This document shows, piece by piece, positions 36,661-40,469 of a stretch of 64,000 nt of DNA (positions are counted from its first letter, which is position 1; each line of letters opens with the position of its first letter). The position numbers were made by a program, and so were the translations under genes. The notes under the pieces are model-generated. The model was not told the origin of the DNA. It ran no database searches and saw nothing but the letters and a program-made list of their open reading frames with translations. Source of the DNA: Mucilaginibacter daejeonensis (GTDB taxonomy: Bacteria > Bacteroidota > Bacteroidia > Sphingobacteriales > Sphingobacteriaceae); assembly GCF_020783335.1 (NCBI RefSeq), contig NZ_CP086068.1, forward strand, positions 558,001 to 622,000, written 5' to 3'.

Positions 36661-38946
36661 ATGAGATTACCCGCTTCGCTTATCGCTAATGAGCAACAAT
36701 GGACCATGTTGTTCAATGCTACTCCTATACCAACGATCATTTTAAAGGCCGATCAGCCATTGTTCACAGTGTTGTTCGCTAATGAGGCGTATTTGCTCCT
36801 CAGTGACCTAAGAGCCGATAGTTTGGTAGGCAAGAGTTTCACTGTACTCATGCGCGGTTTTTACCATGACATGCAGCAGATCCAACAGCCACTGCAGCAG
36901 TTGGTACACGACCGTACGGCGCAAAAACAGAGTGGTGTCGAGTATCAGTTCATAACGCCGCAAGGCGCTGTCACTAAATACTTCGACATCTATAACACCC
37001 CTGTAGCAAATGACGACGGCGAAGTTGAGTTCATTATCCGAACGATCAATGATGTGACCGAACTTTGGGAGTCGCAGCAGCGCGAAAAGGCGATCCATGA
37101 GGACCTGGTAAGGCATGAACGTTTTTTGACCGATTCGCAGCGGGTAGGGAACGTGGGCAACTGGGAGGTAGATATGTTGAAGCGAACGGTGATATGGTCT
37201 GAGGTACTAAAAGACATTTACGAGTTGCCTGCTGATCATGAGCTTACTTTTGAGGGCGGCCTGTCGTTCTATAAAGATGAAGCCTCCCGGAAAGCGTTAT
37301 TAGAAGCAGTGGATACGGCCATTAAAGGGAGTGGAATGTTCGATATCGAGCTGGGGATCCTCACCCACGCGGGTAACATGCGTTGGATCCGTACCATTGG
37401 TAAGGCTGATGTGAATGATGGCCAATGCACCAGATTGTATGGCATTACACAGGATATCACAGCGTCTAAAAAGATCAGGAACGTGCTGACCGAATCCAGG
37501 AATCAGTACCAGGCCCTTATCGAGTCGGTGGACGGTGTGGTTTGGGAGGCCGATGCTAATACCTTTGCGTTCAACTACATCAGCAGCAAGATCATCGATA
37601 TACTCGGTTACACGCCCGAGCAATGGCTCAGCGACCCGAATTTTTGGGCCGATCACATTTACCATGGTGATCGCGAATGGGCTATCGATTTTTGCCAGCG
37701 CAATACCAAAGAAGAGATGAACCATGTGTTCGACTACCGAATGGTCAAGGCCGATGGGGGCATAGTTTGGATCAAAGATCTGGTCTCTGTTATCTCCGAA
37801 AAGGGTAAACCAACGGTGCTCAGGGGCGTGATGATCGATGTGTCGGTCTCCAAATTACTGGCCAGCCTGGACCATCTCGAAAAAAGTATGCTTCAGCTAG
37901 CGGCTGACAGTGAGGAAAGTATCCATCGGATCATCCATCTGTATCTGAAAGGTATAGAGGACCTGCTACCGCATATGAAATGTTCGTTACTACAGGTCAA
38001 GAACGATAGATTATACAATATGGCAGCCCCCTCGTTACCAGCAGAATACATGGGGGCCGTGCATGGGCTACCCATTAGTGATAACGCTGGTTCGTGTGGT
38101 ATGTCAGCATTGAGGAATGAGAAGGTGATCGTGGCCGATATATCAACTCACCCTGCCTGGCATGATCACAAACATTTGGCGTCGAAATTTGGGTTACGGT
38201 CGTGTTGGTCGTATCCCATCGTTAACAGTGATAACGAGGTGGTAGCAGTGCTAGGAATGTATTTTGATGACATTAAAAGCTCGGGCGACACCGAAACATT
38301 AGTTATTGAACGCTCGGCGGCTATCATAAAAGTGGTGCTGGAGAACTGGCAGCGGGCAAGGATCATTGACGAGAACGCCATGCTGATCGCTCAGGGACAG
38401 GAACTAGCCAACTTTGGTAATTGGCATTGGGATATCAATAATAACAAGGTAAGTTGGTCTGACGTTCTCTATACCATATATGGTGTAGAGAAGCAGGATC
38501 ATGTGGCCACTTTTGAGGGCTATCTTGCCTTGTTGCATGCCGACGACCGGGAAATGGTAAAGGACACCATTTTAGGAGCGCTACACTCCAAAGAGGATGT
38601 AATGTTCGAAGAGCGTATCATCAGGCCTGATGGCGAGATACGCTACCTGCGTTCATGGGGCCGGGTGTTACTTGACGCTGCTGGCCGGCCTGAAAAAATG
38701 ATCGGTTCATGTTTAGATATCACCGCGGCCAAGAACATCGAACTACAATTGTGGGACATCGCCTGGATGCAGTCGCATCTGGTGCGAGCACCGCTGGTAA
38801 GGTTGATGGGGCTTATTGACCTCCTTAAAGAGGAACTGGCCGAGCGGGGTACAAAAAATGAGTTGTTCGATCACATCATGTCTACCGCGCATGAGCTTGA
38901 CCGGGTCATCATCGAGATATCCAACAAAACCATCACGATCGACTGA
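36661..38946 (+). CDS. Multi-PAS/GAF sensor with DHp-like helix pair but no ATPase domain
   Basis: A 761-residue cytoplasmic protein; ATG 36661 is chosen over the upstream TTG at 36601. Domain order by pattern: PAS about 13-135, PAS/PAC about 160-275 (N-W-E-V-D, R-W-I-R-T-I-G, L-Y-G-I-T-Q-D-I-T), PAS about 280-395, GAF about 415-565, PAS/PAC about 580-690, then about 65 residues of DHp-like coiled coil with I-A-W-M-Q-S-H-L-V-R-A-P-L-V-R-L-M-G-L-I and candidate phospho-acceptor His706. The protein ends there, without the HATPase N/G boxes. It therefore cannot autophosphorylate alone; it may be a substrate of a separate kinase or a non-phosphorylating sensor. No response regulator is adjacent. 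Confidence 0.82.
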   Translation: MRLPASLIANEQQWTMLFNATPIPTIILKADQPLFTVLFANEAYLLLSDLRADSLVGKSFTVLMRGFYHDMQQIQQPLQQLVHDRTAQKQSGVEYQFITPQGAVTKYFDIYNTPVANDDGEVEFIIRTINDVTELWESQQREKAIHEDLVRHERFLTDSQRVGNVGNWEVDMLKRTVIWSEVLKDIYELPADHELTFEGGLSFYKDEASRKALLEAVDTAIKGSGMFDIELGILTHAGNMRWIRTIGKADVNDGQCTRLYGITQDITASKKIRNVLTESRNQYQALIESVDGVVWEADANTFAFNYISSKIIDILGYTPEQWLSDPNFWADHIYHGDREWAIDFCQRNTKEEMNHVFDYRMVKADGGIVWIKDLVSVISEKGKPTVLRGVMIDVSVSKLLASLDHLEKSMLQLAADSEESIHRIIHLYLKGIEDLLPHMKCSLLQVKNDRLYNMAAPSLPAEYMGAVHGLPISDNAGSCGMSALRNEKVIVADISTHPAWHDHKHLASKFGLRSCWSYPIVNSDNEVVAVLGMYFDDIKSSGDTETLVIERSAAIIKVVLENWQRARIIDENAMLIAQGQELANFGNWHWDINNNKVSWSDVLYTIYGVEKQDHVATFEGYLALLHADDREMVKDTILGALHSKEDVMFEERIIRPDGEIRYLRSWGRVLLDAAGRPEKMIGSCLDITAAKNIELQLWDIAWMQSHLVRAPLVRLMGLIDLLKEELAERGTKNELFDHIMSTAHELDRVIIEISNKTITID

Positions 38947-38970
38947 CGCAACAACGTACCGATCCATTCT

Positions 38971-39333
38971 TTAATTTTCCTTGCGGCTCATATCGCGCTT
39001 GGCCCACTCGGCCATGGCATTGATCACCGTCTCCAACTCGCTGCCGCTACTGGTAAGTCTATACGTCACGTAAGGCGGTACCACCGGTTTTGCTTCGCGG
39101 ATCAACAACCCGTCGGCCTCCAATTGTTTCAGGTGCTGAATAAGCATCTTTTCGGTGATGTGTGGCATAGCTTTCCTGATCTCACTGTAGCGTTTACTTC
39201 CTGATAGCAAATGATACAGAATGATCGGTTTCCAATGTCCCCCGATCTTGTTCATTACGTAGGTCACCGGGCAGGCCTGCAACGCGATTCCGCGGTTGGC
39301 ATTATACGTCGAATTCTCTTTGATCTTGGTCAT
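38971..39333 (-). CDS. HxlR family winged-helix transcriptional regulator
   Basis: A 120-residue DNA-binding protein of the HxlR/YodB class: C-P-V-T-Y-V-M-N-K-I-G-G-H-W-K-P-I-I-L, then L-L-S-G-S-K-R-Y-S-E-I-R-K-A-M-P-H-I-T-E-K-M-L-I-Q-H-L-K-Q-L-E-A-D-G-L-L-I-R, the classical winged helix. Cys21 sits where the redox- or quinone-sensing cysteine of YodB/HypR is found. It is divergent from an NmrA-type reductase 70 bases away and most likely regulates it and itself; the control region contains an operator-like palindrome and overlapping promoters. Confidence 0.9.
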   Translation of the reverse strand: MTKIKENSTYNANRGIALQACPVTYVMNKIGGHWKPIILYHLLSGSKRYSEIRKAMPHITEKMLIQHLKQLEADGLLIREAKPVVPPYVTYRLTSSGSELETVINAMAEWAKRDMSRKEN

Positions 39334-39350
39334 ACATACTTTGGGGTAAG

Positions 39351-39401
39351 TACTTGTAAAAAAGTAAGTGCAAATCTAACTTTGCTTCATCAAAACACAA
39401 A
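39351..39401. promoter_or_regulatory. Overlapping divergent promoters and operator-like palindrome, hxlR / NmrA gene
   Basis: Minus strand: TTTG (39401-39398), 19 bases, TAGATTTG (39378-39371), a textbook Bacteroidetes promoter for hxlR. Plus strand: CTTG (39353-39356), 20 bases, TAACTTTG (39377-39384) for the reductase. The two -7 elements share two bases, so polymerase cannot occupy both. The palindrome TACTT-N6-AAGTA (39351-39366) covers the plus-strand -33 region and the expected hxlR transcription start. Confidence 0.7.
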
Positions 39402-39403
39402 AT

Positions 39404-40297
39404 ATGAAATACATTATCACCGGGTCGTTAGGCAACATCAGCCTCCCCGTTACCAAAGATCTGATCGCTGCCGGCCACCAAGTGACCGTTATCAGCAGTG
39501 ATCCTAATAAACAACAAGCCATTACTGATCTGGGTGCAACGCCTGCGATAGTGCCGGTTCAGGACCGTGATCAGCTTCGTTCAACGTTCGCCGGTCATGA
39601 CGTGGCCTATCTCATGATCCCAAGTATATTCTCTCTTGATGATTATGCTGCCTTTCAACTCGAGGTAGCTGATAACTACATTGATGCGCTTACCTCGGCC
39701 GGTATCAATAAGGTGGTGCTGTTAAGCAGCATAGGTGCGCATTTGCGTAAAGGTGCCGGCCCGATAGATGCCCTGGGCTACCTGGAAGAGAAGCTGGCTG
39801 CATTACCTGGCCTGCAAGTGAAGATACTTCGTCCATCGTATTTTTTCAACAACCTGTATAGTTTGATCGGTATGATCAAGCATGCCGGTATAGCTGGTAA
39901 CAACTTTGGGAACACTGATGAGAAACTGGTGTTAGTAGATACCGACGACATTGCCAGGGTGGCTTCTGAGCGATTGCTTACACCTTTTACTGAGGCACAG
40001 ACCATCACCTACATCTCCAGCGATGAACGCCATCCGCACGAGATCGCTGCTGTGTTGGGTACTGCGATCGGCAAGCCGGACCTGAAATGGATCACCTTTA
40101 GCGACGAGGATGCGTACAATGGCATGTTGCAAGCGGGGCTGAATGAGAGCTTTGCCGGCATGTACCGTGATATGGGCCACGCCTTGCGCACAGGTGCCTT
40201 GCAGGAAGACTATTGGCGGTCGAACCATGCACCGCAGGGACAATTAAAGCTGGAGCGATTCGCAGAGCGTTTTGCCGCAGCTTACAACGCACAATAA
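39404..40297 (+). CDS. NmrA-like NAD(P)-binding reductase
   Basis: A 297-residue atypical short-chain reductase. It starts with the Rossmann motif Y-I-I-T-G-S-L-G-N-I-S-L-P-V (NmrA/QOR2-type G-x-x-G-x-x), has V-V-L-L-S-S-I-G-A-H after strand 5, and R-P-S-Y-F-F-N-N at about residue 147. These proteins are NADPH-dependent quinone reductases or NADP redox sensors. Pairing with an HxlR regulator that has an N-terminal Cys suggests a quinone or electrophile response; this is inference. A terminator follows at 40313. Confidence 0.85.
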   Translation: MKYIITGSLGNISLPVTKDLIAAGHQVTVISSDPNKQQAITDLGATPAIVPVQDRDQLRSTFAGHDVAYLMIPSIFSLDDYAAFQLEVADNYIDALTSAGINKVVLLSSIGAHLRKGAGPIDALGYLEEKLAALPGLQVKILRPSYFFNNLYSLIGMIKHAGIAGNNFGNTDEKLVLVDTDDIARVASERLLTPFTEAQTITYISSDERHPHEIAAVLGTAIGKPDLKWITFSDEDAYNGMLQAGLNESFAGMYRDMGHALRTGALQEDYWRSNHAPQGQLKLERFAERFAAAYNAQ

Positions 40298-40312
40298 GTA
40301 TTTATAGACACC

Positions 40313-40348
40313 AAGAACGCCGGTATGCGAACATGCCGGCGTTCTTTA
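40313..40348 (+). terminator. Terminator after the NmrA-like gene
   Basis: AAGAACGCCGGTATG and CATGCCGGCGTTCTT form a 15-bp near-perfect stem with a short CGAA loop, followed by T-rich sequence. Confidence 0.9.
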
Positions 40349-40469
40349 TTTAAACGCTTACCGAGGCGAGGAACAAAGGGTGATCAAGCTCTTGAGTGAC
40401 CTGTTATAATGAAAAACGCAAACCACTTACACCAATGGGTTGTTGATCATCAAATTCAACTTAACACTT

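Follow-up and report, generated by a model that had tools for sequence, protein, structure and literature searches.

The spacer between a gene for an HxlR-type regulator and a divergently oriented gene for an NAD(P)H-binding enzyme in Mucilaginibacter daejeonensis carries a 51 bp block in which two opposed promoters have part of their -7 boxes in common and are overlaid by two overlapping palindromes. How the block is built, how well it is conserved in many Bacteroidota and how tightly it is linked to hxlR were observed directly, as was an invariant cysteine in the regulator. To judge from these sequence features, the stretch very likely does work as a self-regulated switch.

The locus and its two genes

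The window, meaning the whole stretch of 64,000 nucleotides that was analysed (558001-622000), lies within a single-contig genome of 4.81 Mb. The features discussed here are as follows, with positions counted from the first base of the window.

38971-39333, minus strand: hxlR, encoding a 120-aa winged-helix regulator of the HxlR/DUF24 type with a single cysteine (Cys21)
39335-39385: composite promoter-operator block of 51 bp, mean pairwise identity 0.912 over 87 distinct spacers
39337-39352: dyad 1, TACTT-N6-AAGTA (TACTTTGGGGTAAGTA), strict form in 69 of 87 relatives
39351-39366: dyad 2, TACTT-N6-AAGTA, in 86 of 87 relatives
39353-39356, plus strand: reductase -33 element CTTG, within dyad 2; TTG in 87 of 87 spacers (an alignment anchor column)
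39366, minus strand: predicted hxlR transcription start, with the -7 box placed at -12 to -5 (PMC9723704); predicted leader of 33 nt
39371-39378, minus strand: hxlR -7 box TAGATTTG, TAnnTTTG in 79 of 87 relatives; its TA at 39377-39378 is common with the reductase -7 box
39377-39384, plus strand: reductase -7 box TAACTTTG, TAnnTTTG in 86 of 87 relatives
39389, plus strand: predicted reductase transcription start, by the same placement of the -7 box (PMC9723704)
39398-39401, minus strand: candidate hxlR -33 element TTTG, weakly supported
39404-40297, plus strand: reductase gene, 297 aa, NmrA/NAD(P)H-binding family, divergent from hxlR

The hxlR product scores 104.2 bits against the Pfam HxlR family (cut-off 20.8), which places it in the HxlR/DUF24 family, and its closest solved structure is that of HypR/YybR (4a5m, E 2.8e-25). 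The divergent product lies above the respective cut-offs of both NAD_binding_10 (47.1 bits) and NmrA (43.9 bits) in Pfam and presumably acts as a reductase, as it is called here. The two genes are transcribed away from each other across a spacer of 70 bp (39334-39403).

Conservation of the 51 bp block

Ortholog loci (L010-L119, n = 110, some genes fetched twice) were chosen by similarity of hxlR and not by the motif. They yielded 88 distinct spacers, reduced to 87 when L107 was dropped, as no reductase match adjoins there and the block is present only in diverged form. The 87 spacers, 69 to 153 bp in length, were aligned on ACTTG-N5-AAGT, which is found in each of them, so that the anchor columns are invariant partly by construction. 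Being made up of best hits, with Dyadobacter, Flavobacterium and Mucilaginibacter heavily represented, the set is not representative of the phylum; its reductases are 40 to 100% identical to that of the window.

Across these spacers the columns 39335-39385 are almost fixed and conservation drops sharply past 39385, the mean pairwise identity being 0.912 in the block versus 0.524 in 39386-39403. The hxlR codons reach 0.788 at positions 1 and 2 and 0.424 at position 3, and even among the 2621 pairs with a position-3 identity below 0.45 the block retains 0.909. It is on this conservation that the above-chance standing of the promoter overlap and the palindrome rests. The composite CAAAnnTAnnTTTG, in which the two opposed -7 boxes overlap, has a single copy in the window, at the hxlR/reductase spacer, but 14 copies in the genome (4.8 Mb) versus 10 in the control, so that the overlap alone is not statistically exceptional. 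Nor is a single palindrome rare, as TACTT-N6-AAGTA has 9 genomic sites versus 5 in a backward control. Within the window its only exact copies are the two listed above (mean in shuffles 0.05, two copies in 0 of 100), and by counting alone the double palindrome is the only unusual feature.

The genomic counts are what speaks for the view that promoter- and palindrome-like strings arose by chance in an A+T-rich spacer. This origin is refuted by the conservation of the block in the 87 spacers and by its linkage to hxlR across 149 genomes of the genus (see below), even though neither the overlap nor the single palindrome is rare, and we consider it extremely unlikely.

Two overlapping predicted promoters

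In Bacteroidota the TTG-type -33 element of sigma-A promoters is spaced by about 17-23 bp. The sigma-A -7 box of the phylum, TAnnTTTG, is present on both strands of the spacer, and direct reading bore out the two promoters of the original prediction in coordinates and spacing: TTTG (39401-39398), N19 and TAGATTTG (39378-39371) for hxlR on the minus strand, and CTTG (39353-39356), N20 and TAACTTTG (39377-39384) for the reductase on the plus strand. The two bases that they were said to share are the TA at 39377-39378; both boxes read TAnnTTTG, and the overlapping pair is intact in 79 of the 87 spacers. The starts predicted at 39389 and 39366 follow from placing each box at -12 to -5, the location of the flavobacterial sigma-A box TAnnTTTG in the available part of PMC9723704. 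Mutual exclusion of RNA polymerase at the two promoters, as originally proposed, would be expected even without common bases, because the predicted starts are only 23 bp apart.

The weakest part of this anatomy is the putative -33 box of hxlR, which is weakly conserved. TTTG is found at N17-23 in 35 of 87 spacers, compared with 14.0 expected by shuffling, with 23 occurrences at N19; the shorter TTG is found in 51 (24.7 expected from shuffles), most of them at N19. A scan of 38900-40420 with an E. coli-type sigma-70 model, which does not cover the promoters of this phylum, gave no site in the spacer and one promoter-like site at 39849-39821. A terminator scan of the same stretch found none.

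A candidate operator of two palindromes

The palindrome originally noted at 39351-39366 does cover the -33 region of the reductase promoter as well as the predicted start of hxlR, and 86 of 87 relatives keep it. It is not a single copy, as had been supposed, since a second copy at 39337-39352 overlaps it within the conserved block. The two dyads have 2 bp in common and combine to TACTT-N6-AAGTACTT-N6-AAGTA. Dyad 1 extends from -52 to -37 relative to the predicted reductase start and from +15 to +30 relative to that of hxlR; the corresponding positions of dyad 2 are -38 to -23 and +1 to +16. Dyad 1 is the looser of the two (strict in 69 versus 86 of 87), and both are strict together in 68 of the 87 spacers.

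The half-site centres of TACTT-N6-AAGTA are 11 bp or about 37 Å apart. This is close to the 34.8 Å between the recognition helices of DNA-bound HxlR, which are 44.0 Å apart in the free form (PMC7835342, available part), so that one dimer per dyad fits. On geometry only, two other pairings fit less well to a dimer of this kind: that through the inner AAGTACTT, with centres 3 bp apart, and GTACTT-N10-AAGTAC, with centres 16 bp (about 54 Å) apart. Two dimers on dyads that overlap by 2 bp may clash.

Two further details of the block were noted. The inner sequence of dyad 1 is TNGGGT (39342-39347) in nearly all relatives, with GGG (39344-39346) in 87 of 87; dyad symmetry is an insufficient explanation for dyad 1, as this GGG is asymmetric and yet invariant. 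Directly after dyad 2 there is a conserved AAGTAC (39366-39371; AAGTGC in the window), which repeats GTAAGTAC 18 bp past its first occurrence and may be a further half-site or a piece of the hxlR promoter.

Linkage of the motif to hxlR

A search for the core motif with up to three mismatches gave 80 matches in 74 of 149 genomes of the genus, and these were compared with 81 listed hxlR matches (E < 1e-30). Among the matches listed, all 65 exact motifs are directly upstream of hxlR in the expected orientation, as are 5 of 5 motifs with one mismatch, 4 of 7 with two and 0 of 3 with three. Seen from the regulator, again among the matches listed, 71 of the 73 hxlR genes with 58% identity or more have the motif and, in the form searched, so do 3 of 8 matches of 47-54% identity. 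Of the two motif-less hxlR matches in the upper range, that in G079 starts at base 3 of its contig. At the other, in G030, the block has diverged but contains the overlapping -7 pair, and the protein opposite, of 211 aa, resembles NAD(P)-binding proteins in its first residues.

The six leftover motif matches adjoin a weaker hxlR match in G104 (L174; 34% over a part) and G124 (L179; 29%), adjoin a broken hxlR remnant in G110 (L175), lie 74 bases from a contig end in G117 (L182), or precede a lone reductase in G127 (L180); the match in G015 (L181) has neither hxlR nor reductase adjoining. In a sample of the phylum the motif was matched in 24 of 395 genomes and 8 of 170 genera. Among the 23 loci newly found there (L150-L172), an hxlR match adjoins the motif in 20; none was found beside the three-mismatch motifs of L152, L170 and L171. 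By position, the candidate operator is thus tied to the regulator gene hxlR, with its inverted repeat over the predicted promoter of the divergent gene.

Other and diverged users of the motif

Variants of the motif adjoin HxlR proteins of only 29-43% identity, which have different neighbour genes:

L156: isochorismatase
L158: cupin match, under the curated cut-off
L159: NmrA
L164: SDR
L179: SnoaL-like

The HxlR proteins of L184-L186 are about 50% identical and have a zinc-type dehydrogenase as neighbour; their operator has diverged, though not in the overlapping -7 pair, which is still there. Among diverged relatives the exact pair is present in L178 and L189 and absent in L172, L173, L174, L176, L180, L182, L183 and L188; it is absent also in L156, L158, L159, L164 and L179. 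Within the stretch examined, L174, L158 and L179 also lack the -7 pattern of the downstream gene. As several diverged users do without the exact pair, the -7 overlap marks near relatives and not every user of the operator.

Seven of these relatives (L172, L173, L176, L180, L182, L183, L188) have lost only the exact hxlR -7 box and keep the downstream one, which would suit a different reading of the block. According to this, CAAAnnTA is a further part of the HxlR operator, the hxlR start is elsewhere, and the block consists of one promoter plus operator. The unbroken conservation from dyad 2 into CAAAnnTA, including the extra AAGTAC, and the weak -33 element of hxlR (35 of 87) also point that way. 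We nevertheless regard it as improbable: 79 of 87 spacers retain TAnnTTTG on the hxlR strand, the two n positions being among the freest in the box, hxlR follows directly behind a predicted leader of 33 nt, and the -33-like TTTG, with its peak at N19, exceeds the number in shuffles (35 versus 14.0).

Single loci show further arrangements. In L159 (1494-1549), a more distant relative, there are three TACTT-N6-AAGTA dyads at 1494, 1508 and 1534, the third being on the promoter side. In L175 (G110:C55) hxlR is only a broken remnant while the reductase stays and the motif is drifting (two mismatches); as one case, this drift alongside the loss of hxlR is suggestive only. L180 (G127:C9:174445) has a reductase paralog with a three-mismatch motif but without an adjoining hxlR match; the hxlR of L186, which faces a zinc-type dehydrogenase, is some 8 kb away, and together they are a possible multi-gene regulon.

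The motif is not a general operator for all HxlR proteins of the genome, which holds five such genes. The loci of the other four (L005, L007, L008, L009; about 3.2 kb each) contain no TACTT-N6-AAGTA, and no similar block was seen in their upstream stretches.

Evolution of the pair

A tree of 80 rows, built from HxlR plus reductase by a quick method without bootstrap, places the pair of the window in a set of 14 rows (SH-aLRT 99). The other members are M. conchicola, M. polytrichastri, ten Dyadobacter and one Chitinophaga, and the 15 other Mucilaginibacter rows are placed apart from this set. A joint horizontal transfer of regulator, switch and enzyme between orders is suggested by this grouping. 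Ancient duplication with loss would be the alternative to such a transfer.

Cysteine 21

A cysteine census of the first 110 residues in 87 distinct orthologs found the N-terminal CPV cysteine in all of them, at position 21 in 86 and at position 20 in one, and it is the sole cysteine in 76. The other 11 have a second cysteine near the C-terminus, which might permit a two-cysteine switch in those species.

Alignment with 4a5m places Cys21 at Cys14 of HypR and Met56 at Cys49, so that a two-cysteine switch of the HypR type does not fit. Neither does a formaldehyde sensor of the HxlR type, which employs a Cys-Lys pair, as all 87 distinct orthologs have Val at Cys+2, where HxlR of B. subtilis has Lys. 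If Cys21 is the sensor, a one-cysteine mechanism remains because these two do not fit, and this could be either thiol modification or Cys21-Cys21' bridging.

Redox control through Cys21, as put forward in the original prediction, is plausible by analogy and consistent with a cysteine that is invariant, mostly the only one, and redox-sensing in relatives (PMC6943732, available part). Quinones or diamide as the specific inducers are a guess, as the matching cysteine of B. subtilis HxlR senses formaldehyde according to the accessible text of PMC7835342; the inducer cannot be picked from sequence.

Proposed mechanism

We favour a self-regulated divergent switch, which we consider probable, where HxlR dimers on both dyads would repress hxlR as well as the reductase gene and modification of Cys21 would relieve this. 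We infer that HxlR binds here, that it represses rather than activates, that two dimers act together, that Cys21 provides the chemistry, and that the enzyme is a reductase with a matching substrate. HxlR dimers would bind the two overlapping 16 bp dyads. Occupancy of dyad 2 would cover the reductase -33 element, starting at the predicted hxlR start, and that of dyad 1 would widen the cover to the hxlR leader and to the sequence that precedes the reductase promoter; since these elements would be covered, bound HxlR should repress both genes. Modification of Cys21 by an electrophile or oxidant (or aldehyde) would most likely weaken DNA binding. The reductase would then be made and clear the inducer, and rising HxlR would shut the switch again. 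On free DNA, polymerases would compete for the two promoters, as the same TA step is used by both. Several observations count against this model: dyad 1 is less strict and has the invariant GGG, two dimers on the overlapping dyads may clash, the hxlR -33 element is weak, and only 3 of 8 hxlR matches of 47-54% identity have the motif (among the matches listed).

Repression is the favoured sign; it could be the opposite, as HxlR and HypR of B. subtilis are both activated on modification (PMC7835342, PMC6943732; available parts). By that route HxlR would activate the reductase gene, with modified Cys21 strengthening the binding to dyad 1 (centre at about -44.5) and so recruiting polymerase. That HypR is the best solved relative, that both regulators gain activity on modification (same sources), and that dyad 1 is upstream of the reductase -33 element are all in keeping with activation. 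We think it improbable, as a -33/-7 pair of ordinary spacing is already in place for the reductase, dyad 2 as the more conserved dyad (86 of 87) sits on the -33 element in the position of a repressor site, and neither known activating chemistry fits (Cys+2 is not Lys in 87 of 87; Met56 is at the position of Cys49 in HypR).

A more far-reaching idea can be offered tentatively, as doubtful though conceivable: the 51 bp element plus hxlR may be a portable two-way cassette of Bacteroidota, with its geometry kept through transfer between orders and with varied detoxifying enzymes attached. The two dyads would then form a two-step device, one bound dimer (on dyad 2 or 1) versus two giving different outputs of regulator and enzyme.

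To our knowledge, few operators have been mapped for HxlR regulators in Bacteroidota, and the block provides a precise candidate operator for a subgroup of HxlR found in several families of this phylum. It is also a natural example of strong selection on two promoters that have base pairs at -12/-11 in common, and its compactness makes it a part that could be tried out as an inducible bidirectional switch in these bacteria.

Comparison with known systems

A literature search on operators of the HxlR family, including divergent NmrA pairs and Bacteroidota motifs, gave, as judged mostly by its listings, nothing relevant beyond the papers cited here and general ones, most subscription journals being outside its scope. 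QorR-qor2 of Corynebacterium glutamicum and ytfH-qorB of Escherichia coli are, like the pair described here, divergent combinations of an HxlR-family regulator and an NAD(P)H reductase, and QorR likewise has a single cysteine. The operator of YodB in B. subtilis is a TACTA-type dyad similar to the operator here. YodB and CatR are Cys-based repressors of detoxifying enzymes, and YodB has at least one further cysteine, Cys101 (PMC6943732, available part), whereas Cys21 is alone in the protein of the window.

HxlR of B. subtilis belongs to the same family (E 2.1e-21), has the conserved N-terminal cysteine, and its recognition-helix spacing suits the half-sites found here. It is an activator whose modification raises its DNA binding (both according to the available part of PMC7835342). 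It differs in being an activator of hxlAB and in its formaldehyde-induced Cys11-Lys13 bridge, for which there is no partner here (CPV in 87 of 87).

The hypR and HypO genes of B. subtilis are divergent, and HypR is activated via a Cys14-Cys49' disulfide, which is the role of its Cys49. HypR (YybR) is the best solved relative (E 2.8e-25), with Cys14 aligned to Cys21, and like the regulator here it is linked to a reductase, the flavin disulfide reductase HypO (PMC6943732, available part). It differs in that it is activated on modification (same source) and that Met56 stands here in place of Cys49. This kind of system is already known; what is new is the compact composite, the strength of its conservation, and the reuse of the motif beside other pairs of HxlR and enzyme.
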